From Candidatus Desulfaltia sp. (lineage in GTDB: Bacteria; Desulfobacterota; Desulfobacteria; Desulfobacterales; ETH-SRB1): a DNA stretch of 37,072 nucleotides. Position 1 is the first letter of the stretch, and every line of letters begins with the position of its first letter. Below the pieces are notes generated by a model. It made no database searches, was not told the DNA's origin, and was given only the letters and a program-made list of their open reading frames with translations. The stretch is taken from positions 2,501 to 39,572 of the forward strand of contig JAUSPN010000087.1 in assembly GCA_030656555.1 (NCBI GenBank), written 5' to 3'. The position numbers were made by a program, and so were the translations under genes. Shown in pieces: positions 27,672 through 37,072 of the stretch.

Positions 27672-29078
27672 TTACTCTTCTTCTTTTGGTTTTAAATGAT
27701 CCGGCACAATCACCATATCGAGAAGAATGGGTTTCAGGAAACTCCACTTGATGCCGATTTTGTAAACTTCTTCCAGGTCCCTGATTGCATCCCAGCAATT
27801 ATGGCACGCAGAAACCACAAATTTTGCTCCGGTGGCCAGAATCTGATCACGTTTGACTTTCAAGCCTATGTTTCTTTCTTTCCTGTAACGTCCAATGCCG
27901 TTCATGCCGCCCCCGCCGCCGCAGCAAAAATTATGTTCACGGTTTGGGCTCATTTCACGGAAATCCTCTGCTATATACGACATGATTTTTCTTGTAACAT
28001 CAGTCAAGCCATGATTTCTAATATAGTTGCACGGATCCTGAAGCGTGACAGGCTCTTTGATTTTTTTGGCTGGATCCAGCTTAAGCTTTCCTGTTTCCAA
28101 CGCCTCTAATACCCACTCAACGTAATGAAGTCCCGGAACAGGTGGGTCGCCGCTTTTTCGTCCAGCCCAATAAGGTCCTTCAGTAATAGTTGCACGGTGC
28201 TGATGGCCGCATTCTGTGCCAACATATCTCTTTACTTTTAGCCTTTCCATTGCTGCATAGACATTTTCTACCTGCTGCTTGCAACATGCCCAGTCGCCGG
28301 CAAACATAGCCAGACTTGTTCCTTCCCAGCCTTTGCTGGGGACTGTCCAGCTTTCACCGGCCAGATGGAACAAAATTGCAGCCTCTGCAAGATCCTGTGG
28401 ATAATGTTTTGGTTCACGGGCATTTACTACGTACATAATATCCGCCCCCACTTTATCAACAGGAATTTCAAGACCAGGATAATATTCCTCATTTTCTTCC
28501 ACCATCCATTTACAGGTATCAACATAGTCTTCTACAGTAACATCCATCTGTGCATTATATATCCAATGCATTCCTGATCCGATTTTCATTTCATGCGGCA
28601 CAAAACCCTGCGAAAAACACAGGCCTCTCAAGTAGCCGAACATGACTCCCATATCAATGCCGTGAGGACAATACATCCCGCAGCGATTACAGCAGGTGCA
28701 TTTGCCCCATGCTGTATCCATACAATTTATCATGAATTGAGTATCAACATCCCCCTTTCTCTTTACCAGTTCACCAAGTGTGGATTTTATTTTATAAGAG
28801 GGGATCTGCTTTGGATCATTGTCATTTGCAAGATAAAAGAAACAGGTATCAGCGCACAAACTGCAATGAGCGCAAATTTCAAGCCAGGTACGGATGCGGG
28901 ATTTGCAGGTAGCATCCAGAGTTTTTTTCAACGCGGCCGTATCAACGGGAAATACTTCGAGTTCCTTATAATACCTCACGCCCCTGTCTGCCAATAAGAG
29001 ATCGAGTTCCTCTTTGGTCTTCACAGGTTTTCTGGTAACAAGAGGTGGAAGGTCTTGGCTTTTTGCTTCTTCTGCCAT
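27672..29078 (-). CDS. tmcB: TmcB-like iron-sulfur protein (HdrD/DsrK family)
   Basis: A 468-residue cytoplasm-facing Fe-S subunit. Two cubane-type motifs are seen: [11 protein letters not shown] (about 66-76) and [12 protein letters not shown] (about 122-133). The C-terminal half has CCG-domain features, including EDPCNYIR-like [15 protein letters not shown] and a final SACHNCWD, resembling the special [4Fe-4S] site of heterodisulfide reductase and DsrK. In Desulfovibrio the Tmc complex links periplasmic cytochrome c3 to cytoplasmic acceptors. RBS GGAG is nine bases from the ATG. It lies between tmcC and tmcA, separated by 43 and 39 bases. Confidence 0.88.
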
Positions 29079-29121
29079 ATTTATATCTCCTTAATGAAAA
29101 TATTGTTAAAATTTTATATAA

Positions 29122-29796
29122 TTACCAAGCGATCCCCCTGCCTTTCGCCCCCCCCCTCTTTATGCCGTAATCCATACCGAGCTGGATTCTGGAGCAGAAG
29201 AAGAGAAAGAAATGCGAAAGTTTTGTAAAAGGAATTGCTATCAGCATGATCTCGCCACAGAGAATATGCACAATCAACCAGAACTTGTAGTCCATCCATT
29301 GATGATAGGCAATATAGCCTGTAATAAAAGGAGCTAACGCAATAGCCAGAACAATATAATCCGATGCAGTTGTTAAAATCTTGACATTGGGGTCAGTAAG
29401 ACGACGAATTAAAAAGAAGATTCCCGCGGCAATTACTGCTAAAGTCATATAATCTGCTATATAGTCGGGTATGGTAATCCAGCTTATACTCCACGATTCT
29501 TCTATCAGTACAACATGAGCTACCAGAAAGATCGAAGCTATGACAAGGCAGATATGGAACAGATAGGTTACAGCCATAAAAACGGGATGGTTTGCGGTTG
29601 TTCGATTGAAAGGCAGCAGCCAATGAAAAAGAGATCTTGCAGCTCCAGTAATTCCCGCGCCAAGCTTTTCAGTATAGGCTACTCTATCGAGCCGCCAATC
29701 AAGACCTTTTACATACCAAACAATTCTGGTGATAATCCCGACAAAAAAGATAGCAAATGAAATTAAGGCTAATGGCCCACTTATAAATTCATACAT
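29122..29796 (-). CDS. tmcC: TmcC-like membrane anchor (DsrM/NarI-type cytochrome b)
   Basis: A 224-residue integral membrane protein with about five or six hydrophobic helices. His residues within helices (HPVFMAVTYLFH, VAHVVL, WLIVHILCGE and KLSHFF) can ligate b-type hemes. The C-terminal RIQLGMDYGIKRGG tail is typical of the TmcC/DsrM group as I recall it. It would exchange electrons with menaquinone or conduct them across the membrane between TmcA and TmcB. It is the first gene of the unit, with a GGAGGAG site. No tmcD-like gene is found in the window. Confidence 0.86.
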   Translation of the reverse strand: MYEFISGPLALISFAIFFVGIITRIVWYVKGLDWRLDRVAYTEKLGAGITGAARSLFHWLLPFNRTTANHPVFMAVTYLFHICLVIASIFLVAHVVLIEESWSISWITIPDYIADYMTLAVIAAGIFFLIRRLTDPNVKILTTASDYIVLAIALAPFITGYIAYHQWMDYKFWLIVHILCGEIMLIAIPFTKLSHFFLFFCSRIQLGMDYGIKRGGAKGRGIAW

Positions 29797-30162: not shown

Positions 30163-31677
30163 TTAAAAGAAAATTAAAGTTACGAGCACAAAGGTCGGAA
30201 GCAAATAGATTATGGAAAATTTCAGTATGTAGCCAAAGAAACTCGGCATGGGTGTGCCCGCCTCCTCTGCAATTGACCGCACCATAAAGTTAGGCGCATT
30301 CCCAATATAGCTAAATGAACCAAAGAAGACAGCGCCTGCTGAAATCGCCTTCAAATAAATCGAGGTTTCCGTCATAAGAAGAGGAACAGCCTGAGGTTCC
30401 GGCATCCCGGGATAAAAGGCTCCAAGTGCGGTATTGAAAAATGTAAGGTAAGTAGGCGCATTATCAAGAAAACCGGAAAGAGCGCCTGTAACCCAGAAAT
30501 AATGAGCCGGTTCCTTTACTGCGGCAATCAAAAACGCGAGTTCCCCTTTTAAGCCTGCCTTGAGTATAAGAAGGCACGGGACCATGGTAATAAATATTCC
30601 GATAAAAAGATATGCCACCTCGATGATCGGAAACCAGCTGAAGTCATTGTCTTCATGTATCTTTTTCGAAGTGGTCAGCATGGAGAGGACACCCATTACG
30701 ACCAGAATACCATCGCGTGCCCAGTCCTGTATGGACCTGTGAATTCCAAACGTGTTTACCTGTCCCCAGTCCACTATTCCGCTCATGAGCACCGCCCCGA
30801 CAATACCGCCAAGAAAGAGAAAATTGTGTGTTCCCACTAATTTCAAGGGTTCTTTTTCTCCTTCTTCAACAGGCGCTCCCTTTAATCCTTCCTTTTTATA
30901 ATGATATGAATCGAGGATAAAATAGATTCCCAGGAGAATTCCGGCGGTTACAAGCATGTGCGGCAGAATCTTCATTGTCCAGAAAAAGGAAACCCCGTGA
31001 AGAAATCCTAAAAAGAGCGGCGGATCACCTAAGGGGGTCAATGAACCTCCTATGTTTGCAACCAGAAAAATGAAAAAGACGACCATGAATGTCCTGTTTT
31101 TCCGGTAATTATTCGCCTTTAAGAAAGGGCGGATCATCAGCATGGCAGCTCCTGTAGTACCCATCCACGAAGCAAGCACTGTGCCGATAAGTATCATAAT
31201 AGTATTTACAACCGGTGTCCCGCGTAATGTGCCCTTAAGCATGATGCCGCCGGAAACTGTAAAGAGCGCCCACAGAAGGATAATAAAGGGAACATAGTCG
31301 GCAACGATGATATGAGTAATTGCGTACAGAGCAGCGCCCTTATAAGCGATCAAAAAGGGGATACCTATAGCTGCCGCCCAAAAAGCTGAAACCTTGCCAA
31401 AATGGTGATGCCAGAACTTTGGGGCCAGAAGCGGGAAGAGCGCTATAGAAAGGAGCATGCACGCAAAAGGGATGCAGCTCCAGAGCGGAAGCACCTCTCC
31501 AAGATTGATATGTCCTCCGTGTCCGGTTTCTGCAACAGCATGCGCTGTTTCTTGAGTAGAGCTATGTTTTGTGTCATTTGTTGCTGCAACGCCATGGTCT
31601 GAGGCGGCAATAGCCGGAACCAAAAACGCAAAAATACTAAGTAAGAAAATTATCGCTATCCATTTCCCAAGTCTCAT
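30163..31677 (-). CDS. NhaD-type Na+/H+ antiporter with signal peptide and His-rich N-tail
   Basis: A 504-residue member of the ion transporter superfamily. Residues 1-25 look like a cleavable signal. Residues 26-60 are exported and His-rich (SDHG, TKHSS, TAHAV, TGHGGH). About 11 membrane helices follow. Signature blocks are ASWMGTTGAAMLMIRPFL, NIGGSLTPLGDPPLFLGF and DNAPTYLTFF, with acidic and Asn residues in membrane segments as in NhaD/ArsB proteins. It would exchange Na+ for H+. AGGAGG precedes the ATG. It follows uspA by 25 bases and rnfB further upstream, so it probably works with a Na+ or H+ gradient built by Rnf. Confidence 0.85.
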   Translation of the reverse strand: MRLGKWIAIIFLLSIFAFLVPAIAASDHGVAATNDTKHSSTQETAHAVAETGHGGHINLGEVLPLWSCIPFACMLLSIALFPLLAPKFWHHHFGKVSAFWAAAIGIPFLIAYKGAALYAITHIIVADYVPFIILLWALFTVSGGIMLKGTLRGTPVVNTIMILIGTVLASWMGTTGAAMLMIRPFLKANNYRKNRTFMVVFFIFLVANIGGSLTPLGDPPLFLGFLHGVSFFWTMKILPHMLVTAGILLGIYFILDSYHYKKEGLKGAPVEEGEKEPLKLVGTHNFLFLGGIVGAVLMSGIVDWGQVNTFGIHRSIQDWARDGILVVMGVLSMLTTSKKIHEDNDFSWFPIIEVAYLFIGIFITMVPCLLILKAGLKGELAFLIAAVKEPAHYFWVTGALSGFLDNAPTYLTFFNTALGAFYPGMPEPQAVPLLMTETSIYLKAISAGAVFFGSFSYIGNAPNFMVRSIAEEAGTPMPSFFGYILKFSIIYLLPTFVLVTLIFF

Positions 31678-32216: not shown

Positions 32217-33017
32217 TCAGGCGGCAATCAAATTTTGAATAATTCCTGTCGGGCATTCTTCAAAACACTTGCCGCAACCGGTACACTTTCCACCGTCAAC
32301 TATCGCCAGGAATCTATCAACTATTATAGCCTCTTCCGGGCATGCTTTTTTACATTTTCCGCAGCCCTGACAGCCAACATTGCATATATCCTTAACAACT
32401 TTTCCGCCGTCATGGGAACTGCAAAGAGTCGCTACTTTTTGCGATTCTTTTATCAACGCCGGAATGTGGCGGGGGCAGATATTTACACATGTGCCGCAGC
32501 CCGTGCAGAGCTTTTCATTTACTACAGGCAGACCAGCTTCTCCCATTTTCAAGGCTCCAAACGGGCAATTTACAACACAGGTCCCAAGACCAAGGCAGCC
32601 ATACTTGCAACTTTTGTCTCCTCCGGCAAGCAGAATAGCCGCCCGGCAGTCTAATACGCCCTTGTAATTGTATTTTCGTTCTGCAGCGCTATGGGTGCCT
32701 TTGCAAAATATGTTGATTATATCCCTTTCAGCTGATCCAGCGGATACTCCAAGAACAGCGGCAATCGCCTCTGCGATGTCATCGCCGCCGGCCTTACAAG
32801 CACTGGGCGGGGCTTCGCCAGCCGCTATAGCAACGGCTGCGTCGCTGCAGCCGGCATAGCCGCATCCCCCACAATTCGCGCCGGGAAGACACTCATCTAT
32901 AGCAAGAACTTTTGGATCAACATAGACATAAAAAACTTTTGACGCAATTCCCAGTACAACACTTAGCGCCAAGCCGATGCCGCCCATTGCCACCATCGCA
33001 TTTAATATGGGTCCCAT
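32217..33017 (-). CDS. rnfB: Electron transport complex subunit RnfB
   Basis: The 266-residue ferredoxin-interacting subunit. The N-terminal membrane helix (about 5-28) is followed by the Fe-S domain ECLPGANCGGCGYAGC (about 42-57). Four further Cys groups follow: CKYGCLGLGTCVVNCP, CTGCGTCVNICP, GCQGCGKCKKACP and CTGCGKCFEECP. Length and order match the RnfB of clostridia and sulfate reducers. It is encoded on the strand opposite to rnfCDG, at the head of an rnfB-uspA-nhaD unit. Usually rnfB ends the rnf operon. Whether another rnfB lies past the right edge cannot be seen. Confidence 0.93.
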   Translation of the reverse strand: MGPILNAMVAMGGIGLALSVVLGIASKVFYVYVDPKVLAIDECLPGANCGGCGYAGCSDAAVAIAAGEAPPSACKAGGDDIAEAIAAVLGVSAGSAERDIINIFCKGTHSAAERKYNYKGVLDCRAAILLAGGDKSCKYGCLGLGTCVVNCPFGALKMGEAGLPVVNEKLCTGCGTCVNICPRHIPALIKESQKVATLCSSHDGGKVVKDICNVGCQGCGKCKKACPEEAIIVDRFLAIVDGGKCTGCGKCFEECPTGIIQNLIAA

Positions 33018-33526: not shown

Positions 33527-33907
33527 ATGACTTCTCACAAAGAATTGCAGTTAGTTTATGGCTTGGCTATCATTTTGTTGGTTGTGGGTGTTCTAAGTTA
33601 TGCTGCTTTTCCTGCCAAAGCTCCGGAACGACCGGTCAGGTTAATGTTTAAATGTGTTGCGGGAAAGATTCTGTTTGATCACAAGACACATACTGTTGAA
33701 TCAGGTTACGGTATTTCATGCAGTAGCTGTCATCATAATCTTGAAGAAGGCGAGACAAATCCCCAGGCCTGCGGAGAATGTCATGAACCTGAAAGCCAGG
33801 AGGAAGATATGCTAAGCAGGTCTGATGCATTCCATAAACAATGTATCAGTTGCCATAAGGAATCTGAAGCAGGTCCTGAAAAATGTGAATCATGCCATGT
33901 AATGTAA
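33527..33907 (+). CDS. Membrane-anchored tetraheme cytochrome c3-family protein next to rnfC
   Basis: A 126-residue cytochrome with an N-terminal hydrophobic helix (about 10-28) and no clear cleavage site, so probably tethered to the outer face of the membrane. Four heme motifs are seen: CSSCH, CGECH, CISCH and CESCH, with extra His in FDHKTHT, CHHN and AFHKQ. Spacing and sequence resemble TmcA across the window (both have CHH, then an AFH before the third heme), so the two look like paralogs. Its place before rnfC parallels the cytochromes of Rnf clusters in Desulfovibrio and Methanosarcina. It has its own terminator, so it is not strictly co-transcribed with rnfC. Confidence 0.87.
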   Translation: MTSHKELQLVYGLAIILLVVGVLSYAAFPAKAPERPVRLMFKCVAGKILFDHKTHTVESGYGISCSSCHHNLEEGETNPQACGECHEPESQEEDMLSRSDAFHKQCISCHKESEAGPEKCESCHVM

Positions 33908-33941
33908 AGCAGATAGCTTTTTTGCCGTCTGCTTTTTTTTG
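33908..33941 (+). terminator. Rho-independent terminator after the cytochrome gene
   Basis: AGCAGA (33908-33913) pairs with TCTGCT (33928-33933), extended weakly inward, and is followed by a run of eight T. It lies directly after the stop codon. Confidence 0.75.
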
Positions 33942-33987
33942 TGTTTTTAAACTGAGAGCGTCGTCAAGTTGAATAAAAAAACCCGTT

Positions 33988-34050
33988 CGCTTCGCCTGTA
34001 TTGCAAATCATATAGGCTTGACCGCCATTGAAAAGTGCTCAGGCGAAGCG
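33988..34050. repeat. 11-bp inverted repeat upstream of rnfC
   Basis: CGCTTCGCCTG (33988-33998) is the reverse complement of CAGGCGAAGCG (34040-34050). The following GAGTGGAGAGCTTAGAAAGG recalls the GAGAGCTTTAAT edge of the dispersed repeats. The segment lies in the 5' leader or promoter region of rnfC. Confidence 0.55.
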
Positions 34051-34080
34051 CGCGAGTGGAGAGCTTAGAAAGGTTAAACT

Positions 34081-35367
34081 ATGATAAAAAGATCGTTTAT
34101 CGGTTTGTCAAAACCACGACTTGCATATGGATCGCTTGAAGACACACCTTCCCTTAAGCAAATCCCAACCTCAAAAGAGGTCACCCTTTTAGCAGACTGT
34201 CCGTTTGACAAAAAAAATCTGTTATTTAAAAAAAAAGCGGCTGTTAAGACCGGCCAGAGGCTTTTACTTTACAAGGAAAGCGATGAGTATGTTGTGTCAA
34301 GTGTCACAGGAGAAGTATCATCAATATCCTCTTATACAGGCGACTTTGGCCGATCTTATACTGCCATTGCAATTGAAGTGGCTGGTGATGAGGAAATAGA
34401 TGATGAATTCAATTCCGCCGCAAGCGGATCAAAGGACGCCTCTCTTGAAACCGTCAAAAATTATCTTGCGTTTGCTCCGGGCAACCCTCCCGTTAAACTG
34501 TTTTCCGACAAAGACAAACCTATAAATACAATCGTTGTTTGTTGTGTTGACAGCGATCTATTAATAACAACAAACCAATATATTGTTAAATCCGATATTG
34601 ATGCAATAAAAAATGGTATAAGTATCCTGAAAACAGTAACCGGAGTTAATGATATTATAATGGTAGCTTCACAGAGCCAGATGCATGAACTCTCCGCAAC
34701 CGGTGAAAAAGTAAATCAGGTTAATGATACATATCCATCCGCGCTTCCGCATCTTATTATGAAAAATGTCCTTGGCAAGATGGTACCTGCCGGGAAAACC
34801 CCTGAAGATATCGGGGTGTGTTTTATCAGCGCTGAAGCGGTTGCATCTATCGGAAATGCTTTTAAAAGCGGCCAAATACCCGTAACAAAAATCTTTACTC
34901 TTGTTAAGAAAGATGGCTCTAAATCACTTGTATCCGCAAGGATAGGAACACCGGCAAGCGATATCTTCAAGGCTTTTAATATTACCTTAAACGAAAACGA
35001 CAGGATAATTTTCGGCGGCCCCATGACAGGATCGTCCGTCTATTCAGAAGATCATCCGGTTCAGCCCGACACCGATGCCATTATCGTACAGGATAAAGAT
35101 GATATACCTGTTATTTCAGATTACCCCTGCACAAACTGTGGCGACTGCATAAGGGTATGCCCGGCAAATATTCAGATTAACCTGCTTGTCCGGTTTCTTG
35201 AAGCCGGACAATATGAAGCAGCAGCAGATCAGTACGATTTGTATTCATGCATTGAATGCGGTCTTTGCAGTTATGTTTGTGTGTCTGAAATGCCGATATT
35301 CCAGTATATCAGGGCGGCAAAATATGAGCTTGGCAGGGCAAATACAGCGGAGGCAACCAATGGTTGA
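34081..35367 (+). CDS. rnfC: Electron transport complex subunit RnfC, variant lacking the NADH-binding loop
   Basis: A 428-residue peripheral subunit of Rnf. The N-terminal barrel-sandwich region, the SLBB-like IIFGGPMTGSS block (309-319) and two 4Fe-4S motifs (Cys350, 353, 356, 360 and Cys390, 393, 396, 400) identify RnfC. Typical RnfC has a GxGGAGFPTxxKL loop followed by NGAECEP. Here the aligned segments read APGNPPVKL (132-140) and CCVDSDLLITTNQY (154-167), so the glycine loop for FMN/NADH is absent. The protein may therefore not react with NADH. It overlaps rnfD by 8 bases. A repeat and a cytochrome gene precede it. Confidence 0.9.
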   Translation: MIKRSFIGLSKPRLAYGSLEDTPSLKQIPTSKEVTLLADCPFDKKNLLFKKKAAVKTGQRLLLYKESDEYVVSSVTGEVSSISSYTGDFGRSYTAIAIEVAGDEEIDDEFNSAASGSKDASLETVKNYLAFAPGNPPVKLFSDKDKPINTIVVCCVDSDLLITTNQYIVKSDIDAIKNGISILKTVTGVNDIIMVASQSQMHELSATGEKVNQVNDTYPSALPHLIMKNVLGKMVPAGKTPEDIGVCFISAEAVASIGNAFKSGQIPVTKIFTLVKKDGSKSLVSARIGTPASDIFKAFNITLNENDRIIFGGPMTGSSVYSEDHPVQPDTDAIIVQDKDDIPVISDYPCTNCGDCIRVCPANIQINLLVRFLEAGQYEAAADQYDLYSCIECGLCSYVCVSEMPIFQYIRAAKYELGRANTAEATNG

Positions 35368-36358
35368 TAATAATATAGCTGATAACAACACGGTTAATAC
35401 TAACAAATTCATAGTTTCACATGCCCCTTTCTGGCACGATGGAAGCAAAATATCTCTGCGAAATTATAATATGGCGCTTGCGGCTCTCCCTGCAATCCTG
35501 TTTGGCATTTATTACTATGGCATGCAGGCTGTCGGTGTTTTGTCACTTTCCATCTCCACGGCAATTATATGGGAATTTATTTTTTGTCGTATAACAAAAC
35601 GTTCAAATACAATTGGAGACGGTAACGCAGCCATTATAGGCATGTTATTAGGCATGCTTTTACCTGCAACAGCGCCATGGTGGTTTGTAATAACAGGAAC
35701 ATTTGTTGCCATTATTATCGGAAAACAGATCTTTGGCGGAATCGGAGCCAATCCTTTTAATCCTGTAGCTGTTGCTATTGCTATCCTGATGTTATCGTGG
35801 GGAAATGTATTTGATTTTAACGAAGCGCTTATAAATTTTGATTTCGATTTTGCCATGGTCTATCCTCTTGCCGCTTTGAAACATTTTGGCGTATCTGCTG
35901 TTGATTCCTTCAGCATGGGTAATCTTTTAATGGGCAAACAGTCAGGAGGAATAGGTTCAACCTTTGGTCTTGGCCTTATTGCCGGAGGAATTTACCTCAT
36001 TATCAGAGGAATCATCAGGTGGGAAATATCAATTTCCTTTTTAGCCGGTATCATTATAACCTCTCTGATATTTAATATAACTGATCCCGCGCGTTACGCA
36101 GGCCCGGTTATCCATCTTTTTGCCGGCTATACTTTGATCGGGGCCTTTTTCCTTGCAACAGAAGATTCATCTTCACCCGTTAACTTTATTCCAATGCTTA
36201 TTTATGGAGCAGGCGCTGGATTTTTGACCGTGCTTATAAGAAATATCGGCTTTTATGTTGATGGAGTGATATTTGCAATCCTGATCATGAATCTTATAAA
36301 TCCGCTTATAGATAAAATCAGACCAAAAGCTATTGGAAAGGTTGTAGAAAATGCGTGA
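35360..36358 (+). CDS. rnfD: Electron transport complex subunit RnfD, flavinylation residue not conserved
   Basis: A 332-residue integral membrane subunit with about nine or ten helices. GKQIFGGIGANPFNPVAVA (121-139) and NITDPARYAGPVIHLFAGYT are typical of RnfD/NqrB. The periplasmic flavin site is normally S/T-G-A-T/S-P-L; the aligned segment here is AMVYPLAALK (165-174), with Tyr168 in place of the flavin-carrying Thr. The ATG at 35360 with GGAGG upstream overlaps rnfC by 8 bases; the longer frame from 35186 is only the shadow of rnfC. It overlaps rnfG by 8 bases. The operon is tightly coupled. Confidence 0.9.
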   Translation: MVDNNIADNNTVNTNKFIVSHAPFWHDGSKISLRNYNMALAALPAILFGIYYYGMQAVGVLSLSISTAIIWEFIFCRITKRSNTIGDGNAAIIGMLLGMLLPATAPWWFVITGTFVAIIIGKQIFGGIGANPFNPVAVAIAILMLSWGNVFDFNEALINFDFDFAMVYPLAALKHFGVSAVDSFSMGNLLMGKQSGGIGSTFGLGLIAGGIYLIIRGIIRWEISISFLAGIIITSLIFNITDPARYAGPVIHLFAGYTLIGAFFLATEDSSSPVNFIPMLIYGAGAGFLTVLIRNIGFYVDGVIFAILIMNLINPLIDKIRPKAIGKVVENA

Positions 36359-36947
36359 AATAATTAAAATGATTGTAGTGCTTACAGTTTTAAGCTGTTT
36401 CTCGGGTGGTCTGCTTGCGGCAATCCGCGGTGGAACAAAGGATAAAATTGAAAACCAGCAGTTAGAGTTTGTTAAAGGGCCTGCAATAAGGAATATTCTT
36501 AAGGGGTCTTCCAACGATCCTATTGCTGACCGCTTTAAAATCAAGGACGGCGATGTTGAAAGAAGCTTCTTTGTAGGTATATTTGACGGAAAGGCTAATA
36601 CAGTTGCGTTTGAAAGCTTTGGAAAGGGATTTGGCGGTGATATCGGCATTATGATTGGTGTAAACATAAATGATGACAAGATTGTTAACATGGGCGTAAC
36701 TACCCATAGTGAAACACCGGGCGTTGGTTCCAAAGCACAATCAGAACCTAAATTATCAAATAGATTCAAAGGATTGGATCTGTTTCAATCCTTTAAAGTC
36801 AAACCGGATGGTGGACAGATTGATGCCATGTCAGGAGCCACAGTTACTTCACGCGGAGTTTGTGGCGGAGTAACAGAAGCCGGCAGTGTTTATAAACGCT
36901 TAAAACCTCAAGTCATTGAAAAAATGAAACAATTTAGTCCATTATAA
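36351..36947 (+). CDS. rnfG: Electron transport complex subunit RnfG
   Basis: A 198-residue periplasmic flavoprotein subunit anchored by an N-terminal helix (about 5-24). The FMN-binding domain has THSETPGVGSKA (118-129) and DAMSGATVTSRGV (158-170), in which Thr164 of SGAT is the covalent FMN site. All key residues are present, unlike in RnfD. The ATG overlaps the rnfD stop by 8 bases. In Rnf it relays electrons near the outer membrane face, and in this cluster it could face the tetraheme cytochrome. Confidence 0.93.
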   Translation: MREIIKMIVVLTVLSCFSGGLLAAIRGGTKDKIENQQLEFVKGPAIRNILKGSSNDPIADRFKIKDGDVERSFFVGIFDGKANTVAFESFGKGFGGDIGIMIGVNINDDKIVNMGVTTHSETPGVGSKAQSEPKLSNRFKGLDLFQSFKVKPDGGQIDAMSGATVTSRGVCGGVTEAGSVYKRLKPQVIEKMKQFSPL

Positions 36948-36951
36948 AAAC

Positions 36952-36970
36952 CCTTGCCCTCAGGGCAAGG
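36952..36970 (+). other. Perfect 8-bp hairpin between rnfG and the next gene
   Basis: CCTTGCCC-TCA-GGGCAAGG lies five bases after the rnfG stop. No T tract follows, so it is more likely an mRNA-stabilising or processing hairpin than a terminator. The remaining 87 bases up to the next start contain no ORF. Confidence 0.5.
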
Positions 36971-37057
36971 TCAGAGTTCATTGGCTTTGCCTTTTGAACG
37001 ACCCATTGTTACATCCAGACCTGAGTTGTCCCAACAGCATCAGGAAAGGAGTAACAA

Positions 37058-37072
37058 ATGAGTCGTTTTCGA
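37058..37072 (+). CDS. Start of next gene, probably rnfE (truncated by window edge)
   Basis: ATG at 37058 preceded by AAAGGAG, followed by MSRFR before the window ends. In rnf operons the order is usually C-D-G-E-A-B, so rnfE is expected. Only five codons are visible, so the product is inferred from order alone. Confidence 0.45.

Follow-up and report, generated by a model that had tools for sequence, protein, structure and literature searches.

Energy models of sulfate-reducing bacteria draw Rnf as a ferredoxin:NAD+ pump (e.g. PMC4215793, PMC10553843). In Desulfovibrio (DVU2791-2798, Dde_0580-0587), the gene of the cytochrome DhcA stands before rnfCDGEAB (PMC4841214, PMC10920352), and a ferredoxin:cytochrome c3 activity of the Rnf of Desulfovibrio and other sulfate reducers has already been suggested in print (PMC10920352). 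In the vesicle experiments that PMC4841214 recounts for D. alaskensis, attempts to show that a gradient is formed when ferredoxin is oxidised and NAD+ reduced were unsuccessful. According to the passages of PMC4023990 on the Rnf of Methanosarcina acetivorans, this complex makes no use of NAD(P), and rnf is co-transcribed with the gene of a multiheme cytochrome c. RnfG was proposed there to feed the cytochrome c, the authors routing electrons via RnfC and RnfD to RnfG, and a possible flavin motif, SGTF, was noted in RnfD (PMC4023990).

The window analysed here, the whole stretch of 37,072 nucleotides from Candidatus Desulfaltia sp., carries an rnfC gene (34081..35367, + strand) whose frame is open and clean and codes for 428 amino acids. 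The product is a loop-less RnfC (type A, as defined below). The solved RnfC chains 7zc6, 9eri and 8ahx match it with E values of 2.7e-29 to 1.1e-26. Its TIGR01945 score, 183.9 bits, lies below the cut-off of 245.95, a cut-off that is no test of the glycine-rich loop, as the loop-less L229, L082 and L235 exceed it. The initial annotation had claimed that this protein lacks both the Gly-rich GxGGAxFPT loop and the NGxECEP-type block, and regex scans of the whole protein together with profile alignment bore this out. It had also placed APGNPPVKL at codons 132-140 (34474..34500, +) and the residues C154-Y167, CCVDSDLLITTNQY, correctly. A profile of 24 relatives of the window RnfC (A1) was aligned by hhalign with a profile of 16 loop-bearing RnfC (A3; Prob 100, E 3.2e-59), and the register was good on either side of the motifs, PGN-PPVKL being paired with GxGGAxFPTHVKL and CCVDSDLL with NGxECEPY. 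APGNPPVKL thus occupies the position of the loop and CCVDSDL (codons 154-160, 34540..34560, +) that of NGxECEP, while YPSALPH (codons 218-224, 34732..34752, +) stands in the place of YPQGxEK, which we take, from NuoF-type proteins, to be the third flavin-pocket element of loop-bearing RnfC. A relocation of the loop within the protein, which had been named as a way in which the claim might fail, is ruled out by this profile-profile alignment. The canonical motifs of solved RnfC align with the loop-bearing relative L098.

Both CxxCxxCxxxC motifs are intact, as first reported, and all eight cysteines stand in invariant alignment columns (C350, C353, C356 and C360, 35128..35160, +; C390, C393, C396 and C400, 35248..35280, +). 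The fold was modelled with AF2, without ligand (mean pLDDT 93.0, pTM 0.92), and the RnfC fold is kept: the closest matches are five solved RnfC chains with Z of 32-34 (8rbm_C 34.1, 9eri_C 33.9), followed by NqrA (up to 26.6) and then NuoF-type chains (up to about 18). The NqrA model TIGR01936 gives 49.9 bits, short of its cut-off of 321.05, and the eight Fe-S cysteines set the protein apart from NqrA, which has none.

With the window RnfC as query, matches were found in 88 of 94 related genomes, and two kinds of RnfC were distinguished. Type A (at least 300 bits on the A1 profile) has about 430 aa and is 37-94% identical to the window protein; type B, which was picked by the motifs themselves, has 450-500 aa. 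At least one motif regex is found, by locus sequence, in the RnfC of 23 genomes. A type A match was obtained in 21 of them as well, so that at least 21 of the 94 carry both types; G050 is counted among these 21 on a search row alone, with an internal stop. Among the best 80 of 259 matches listed, type A carriers include Desulfonema magnum, Desulfosarcina cetonica, D. widdelii, Desulfospira joergensenii, Desulfofustis glycolicus and a MAG labelled Acidobacteria (L194, 337 bits); no Desulfovibrio appears among these 80 in the contig scan.

Residues were tallied in 226 RnfC sequences (206 distinct full-length and 20 more), the loop-bearing ORFs L282 (780 aa) and L291 (664 aa) and the NqrA-like proteins being left out. 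All 11 diagnostic residues are present in 48 of the 49 type B sequences, and 10 in the remaining one. Neither motif occurs in any of the 152 type A sequences, none of which has more than four of the 11 residues, and the eight Fe-S cysteines are complete in all 152. A further 25 loop-less RnfC of other branches form the X group, to which the RnfC of a MAG labelled Spirochaetes (L197, 268 bits, among the same best 80 of 259 matches listed) belongs. One member comes from the loop-bearing clade: L110:3445-5031 (G083) has a degenerate loop, GLGGAGIP, and a block SESEP, so that both regexes fail, and it is counted under X in the residue and locus tallies.

Since the type B set was chosen by its motifs, a tree serves as the independent test. 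In a tree of 170 rows from which the motif columns had been removed, two clades stand out: one (SH-aLRT 100) unites the 36 motif-bearing rows with L110, the other (SH-aLRT 99) holds 115 of the 116 type A rows, L247 (310 bits) being the exception. The motif changes essentially once on this tree and the counts are not independent; therefore, no p-value is given for the associations described here. As type B and NuoF align with each other in the loop region, it is more likely that an ancestral loop was lost in the loop-less forms than that it was gained in type B. In one genome of the window's own family (G013), the only RnfC match, L082:2076-3410, is a loop-less protein of another branch, 31% identical to the window's, with no multiheme ORF in the stretch examined around it.

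The absence of the motifs is thus a clade-wide property and no peculiarity of the window protein. A decaying gene, already dismissed by the initial annotation, is ruled out by the clean frame and by the loss in 152 type A sequences, despite an insertion-sequence-like element in the operon. The proposal that the subunit has lost NADH reactivity is supported as far as sequence goes, three FMN/NADH elements being gone while fold and Fe-S cysteines are kept, and it is the best-supported reading of the RnfC subunit; its scope was too narrow, as the property belongs to the whole clade.

The neighbouring subunits tell which parts of the complex have changed together with RnfC. The window rnfD (35360..36358, +; 332 aa; profile matches and alignment) has a tyrosine codon, Tyr168 (35861..35863, +), at the position of the covalent-FMN threonine, T156 in A. 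woodii (PMC11889175), as judged from alignment to 9eri_D and a column tally. Threonine stands in this column in 0 of 145 RnfD encoded beside type A (103 have Tyr), in all 42 beside type B and in 4 of 21 beside X loci. The riboflavin residues are mostly kept beside type A: N123 is Asn in 122 of 145 and His in 17, and at D249 there is Glu in 126 and Asp in 19. In rnfG (36351..36947, +; NF045876 RnfG_DVU2794, 249.9 bits, cut-off 205), the covalent-FMN threonine codon within SGAT is intact by alignment (36840..36842, +), and this threonine is kept in 135 of 142 RnfG beside type A (5 gaps, 2 Ser). Two cysteine columns each are invariant in the RnfA (90 of 90) and RnfE (101 of 101) of type A loci, where they presumably hold the [2Fe-2S] cluster. 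Given the conserved RnfG threonine and RnfA/RnfE cysteines, the input side and the periplasmic hub appear intact, whereas the return branch to NAD would be without both of its FMN sites, as the pocket elements of RnfC and the RnfD threonine are gone.

These data also bear on whether RnfC might bind FMN and NADH by a remodelled pocket. The preserved fold in a confident model would agree with this, as would the PF01512 FMN-binding domain, which still matches the window protein with 37.3 bits against a cut-off of 31.2. However, a protein family in which four at most of the 11 diagnostic residues remain, and in which this loss accompanies that of the RnfD threonine, makes such a pocket highly improbable.

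Directly upstream of rnfC lies a gene (33527..33907, +) for a tetraheme class III-like cytochrome c of 126 aa with an N-terminal hydrophobic stretch (PF02085, 49.0 bits; the TmcA-like model NF045722 gives 61.9 bits, below its cut-off of 114). The locus is therefore not "cytochrome-free": as in the Methanosarcina type, a multiheme cytochrome c is encoded with rnf. Defined by at least three CxxCH motifs within 1.3 kb upstream, and counted where the sequence extends at least 1 kb upstream, a multiheme cytochrome precedes rnfC at 138 of 139 type A loci and at 0 of 34 loop-bearing loci. L070, the sole type A exception, has a five-heme ORF overlapping the front of its long stop-to-stop frame. No upstream cytochrome was seen at 15 further motif-bearing loci; L288 has one 8 kb downstream, and the motif-bearing L291 showed no rnf neighbours. 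The N-terminal hydrophobic stretch is found in 145 of 148 type A cytochromes. The initial annotation had asked whether cytochrome-free RnfC mostly lack the loop as well. In fact, they mostly carry it, as all 34 loop-bearing loci are without an upstream cytochrome; nine of 18 loop-less RnfC of other branches are also without one. Between the cytochrome gene and rnfC there is a terminator-like hairpin with a T run (33905..33941, +; z -4.39); a consensus terminator scan limited to loops of 8 does not list it. The hairpin is followed, still ahead of rnfC, by an inverted repeat of 18 bases that is imperfect (33981-34057).

The RnfB subunit shows a second difference between the two groups. The window rnfB (32217..33017, - strand; profile matches and family comparison) encodes a short form of 266 aa without a GltD/NfnL-like module. 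Short separate RnfB, in frames of 271-277 aa, were found in 15 of the 17 genomes of the window's family, 2 showed none, and a fusion was seen in none of the 17. The rest of this genome was likewise searched for a fused RnfB, and none was seen among the matches listed. In many type A operons, RnfB is a protein of about 700 aa that joins an RnfB N-terminus to Fer4_20 and Pyr_redox_2 (in sister families, e.g. L112:7183-9291, L113:7254-9368 and L111:8493-10610), and the solved structures nearest to its second half are chains of NfnABC (9bov_A, 9n5u_A) and StnABC (8oh5_C) and of the NfnL/GltD type (4ylf_B, 5jca_L). Of the type A loci that extend at least 5.6 kb downstream, 59 of 75 have the fusion, against 0 of 23 loop-bearing loci. 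It occurs also at the loop-less L235, L244, L283 and L284, all without a cytochrome. Across the clade, the loss of the RnfC motifs is tied to the cytochrome gene, to the loss of the RnfD threonine and, in sister families, to this NAD(P)H-type module on RnfB.

Such a pattern suggests that the NAD(P)H site might have moved, the FAD-NAD(P)H module fused to RnfB working at the input side and relieving RnfC. By analogy, NAD(P)H might there be joined with ferredoxin by con- or bifurcation, and the window's family would have lost the module or never had one. The nature of the fused domains and their distribution, with and without a cytochrome, speak for this possibility, which we take seriously while giving it somewhat less than an even chance. 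No fusion was seen in the window's own family, and at eight loop-bearing loci (L234, L239, L274, L275, L276, L281, L282, L289) rnf is followed, on the same strand, by a separate GltD-like ORF, so that GltD-like modules are not confined to loop-less operons. Moreover, both the redox role of the module and its preference for NAD(P) are putative, and a bifurcating role would be assigned by analogy.

For the window's own family, we consider it rather probable that the NAD arm of Rnf has been dismantled and that the complex is a ferredoxin:cytochrome c oxidoreductase with its path through RnfB, RnfA/RnfE and RnfG. Indeed, as a nucleotide-binding module is recognised in neither RnfC nor RnfB of this family, the complex should exchange electrons between ferredoxin and cytochrome c, in either direction. 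Electrons from ferredoxin would enter at RnfB and pass by the RnfA/RnfE [2Fe-2S] cluster to RnfG in the periplasm and its covalent FMN, ions being pumped at this crossing. From RnfG, they would reach the co-encoded cytochrome, presumably anchored in the membrane, and then the periplasmic c3 pool, with no return through RnfD and RnfC to NAD. RnfC would keep its fold and both 4Fe-4S clusters and have lost FMN and NADH binding, and we infer that there is no flavin in RnfC or at the RnfD site. This route from ferredoxin to cytochrome c is the simplest one that uses conserved redox residues alone. It would fit the failed vesicle experiments with D. alaskensis, with the reservation that failed assays have many causes.

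Several observations do not sit easily with this path. In the experiments reported for D. alaskensis, rnf mutants are sick, while dhcA mutants have no fitness loss bar one experiment (PMC4215793). Among loop-less RnfC below 300 bits, an upstream cytochrome is found at just 9 of 18 loci (a count that takes in L110); L082, L083, L084, L229, L232 and L290, all loop-less proteins of other branches, lack the cytochrome and the RnfB fusion alike, L236 being left unjudged as its contig ends in rnfB; and the RnfD threonine is kept beside four X loci. In this genome, moreover, the hairpin splits the cytochrome gene from rnfC, and the insertion-sequence-like element splits rnfG from rnfE. The largely kept riboflavin residues of RnfD suggest that half of the return path may survive, and two invariant Fe-S motifs would be needless in an RnfC that was purely structural.

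The last two points raise the possibility that RnfC is still an electron output, using its two 4Fe-4S clusters to hand electrons on to a soluble partner in the cytoplasm other than NAD, such as a flavodoxin, an Hdr-like protein or a thiol. The invariance of the eight cysteines throughout type A, the RnfD riboflavin residues and conserved type A residues of RnfC such as P133-G134 and D159 would be explained in this way. Yet the RnfD FMN threonine that links RnfG to riboflavin is gone, and in a scan that covered rnf, GltD-like and multiheme genes nothing linked came up as a partner except the cytochrome and the fused RnfB, a weak objection given the genes scanned for. We regard such an output as doubtful.

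It may also be asked whether RnfC has become structural in the manner of NqrA, with menaquinone taking up the electrons close to the riboflavin of RnfD, as happens in Na+-NQR. NqrA is the second-best fold match, the NqrA-like proteins of relatives keep two Cys motifs, and NqrA falls on the type A side of a tree (97/90). In that tree, however, long branches meet, so that an NqrA origin is a mere lead. The quinone site of NqrB uses N-terminal helices that, in the description given in PMC12174285, are absent from RnfD, and the window RnfD, with 332 aa, is no longer than that of the loop-bearing relative L098 (334 aa). Type A RnfC keeps the Fe-S cysteines, and the cytochrome would be left unexplained; a quinone-reducing complex of this kind is therefore improbable. 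NqrA-like genes of the relatives deserve mention in their own right: at 19 loci (L294-L312, e.g. L294:1474-2829), the product keeps both CxxCxxCxxxC motifs of RnfC and the gene lies beside an NqrB/RnfD gene. Three of the 19 exceed the nqrA cut-off, and the best nqrA match, L293, is without these motifs.

If the ferredoxin:cytochrome c reading is extended beyond the window's family, Rnf might have been rewired as a unit across the order and beyond. Its NAD arm (the RnfC FMN/NADH site and the RnfD FMN) would have been stripped, electrons would leave RnfG through a membrane-anchored cytochrome c, and NAD(P)H would, in many families, have come to be bound on the input side by the NfnL-like module fused to RnfB. 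The result would be an ion-pumping cytochrome c reductase driven by NAD(P)H and/or ferredoxin, possibly confurcating. Such RnfC, and with them the NqrA-like proteins of this order that bear the cysteines, would be intermediates that have survived from the passage of RnfC to NqrA. So wide a scheme is tentative, and we think it somewhat unlikely to hold in full.

In this genome (2.73 Mb, 107 contigs), the window lies at the end of contig C36. RnfD, RnfG and RnfB are encoded in the window and RnfE and RnfA at the start of contig C48, which completes the set of Rnf subunits. The final 125 bases of the window (36948..37072, +), the end of a repeated, insertion-sequence-like element between rnfG and rnfE/rnfA, occur at 11 places in the genome at 100% identity, 10 of them at contig ends. 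Contig C48 opens with about 150 bases (L322:1-150), followed by rnfE and rnfA, and these opening bases and the window tail have an inverted 13-base word in common. In G003, whose RnfC is 94% identical, rnfG directly adjoins rnfE. Thus, an insertion-sequence-like element probably interrupts the rnf operon between rnfG and rnfE in this genome, and it is probably also the cause of the contig break. Less than 4 kb from rnf, the window encodes homologues of HmcF (872.8 bits) and HmcE (304.8 bits; 27672-29796, -), a transmembrane redox pair of sulfate respiration. Between Hmc and rnfB (30163-31677, -) come a membrane protein, putatively of the citrate transport type (PF16980), and a universal stress protein, and ORFs similar by eye to this pair are found upstream of rnf at L114:10065-11609.

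Should the NAD arm be physically absent from the complex, ferredoxin would be tied through Rnf to the pool of periplasmic cytochromes, and energy balances would change both for syntrophy and for cells growing on H2, formate and ethanol. The sequences make this question directly testable, as a second, loop-bearing Rnf provides an internal control in 21 of the 94 relatives. In an incomplete literature search, we found no published statement of the missing FMN sites in RnfC and RnfD of the type A group, of which there may be earlier notice, and none of an RnfB fused to an NfnL-like module.

Compared with the ferredoxin:NAD+ Rnf of A. woodii, Clostridium tetanomorphum and Azotobacter vinelandii (9eri, 7zc6, 8ahx), type A complexes have the same RnfC fold and Fe-S motifs, the same RnfG FMN threonine and two invariant cysteines each in RnfA and RnfE. 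They differ from them in the absence of the RnfC FMN/NADH elements and of the RnfD FMN threonine, and in the cytochrome c gene in front. NqrA of Na+-NQR has a homologous fold (Z 26.6) without FMN or NADH; it is described as being without Fe-S clusters (PMC4014512, PMC12174285), whereas type A RnfC keeps all eight cysteines. In Desulfovibrio, the cytochrome gene comes first as in the window, with ten hemes in DhcA and four here, and the window RnfG exceeds the cut-off of NF045876, a model named for DVU2794. The f110/g141 genomes (L285, L313-L315), which have a ten-heme cytochrome, a loop-less RnfC and a short RnfB, were taken as a stand-in for Desulfovibrio and its DVU2792. Their RnfG score 282.6 (L285) and 277.0 bits (L314) on the same model, and the masses of their RnfD, G, E, A and B resemble the D. 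vulgaris values in PMC10920352 (taken as kDa), although their RnfC, at about 46-47 kDa from the likely Met, is larger than the 43.5 listed there. By analogy with these genomes, we infer that the Desulfovibrio Rnf may also be loop-less. The ferredoxin:methanophenazine Rnf of M. acetivorans, as described in PMC4023990, differs in that type A is bacterial and, in the window, has a tetraheme cytochrome; if our reading is right, the two complexes would work alike.
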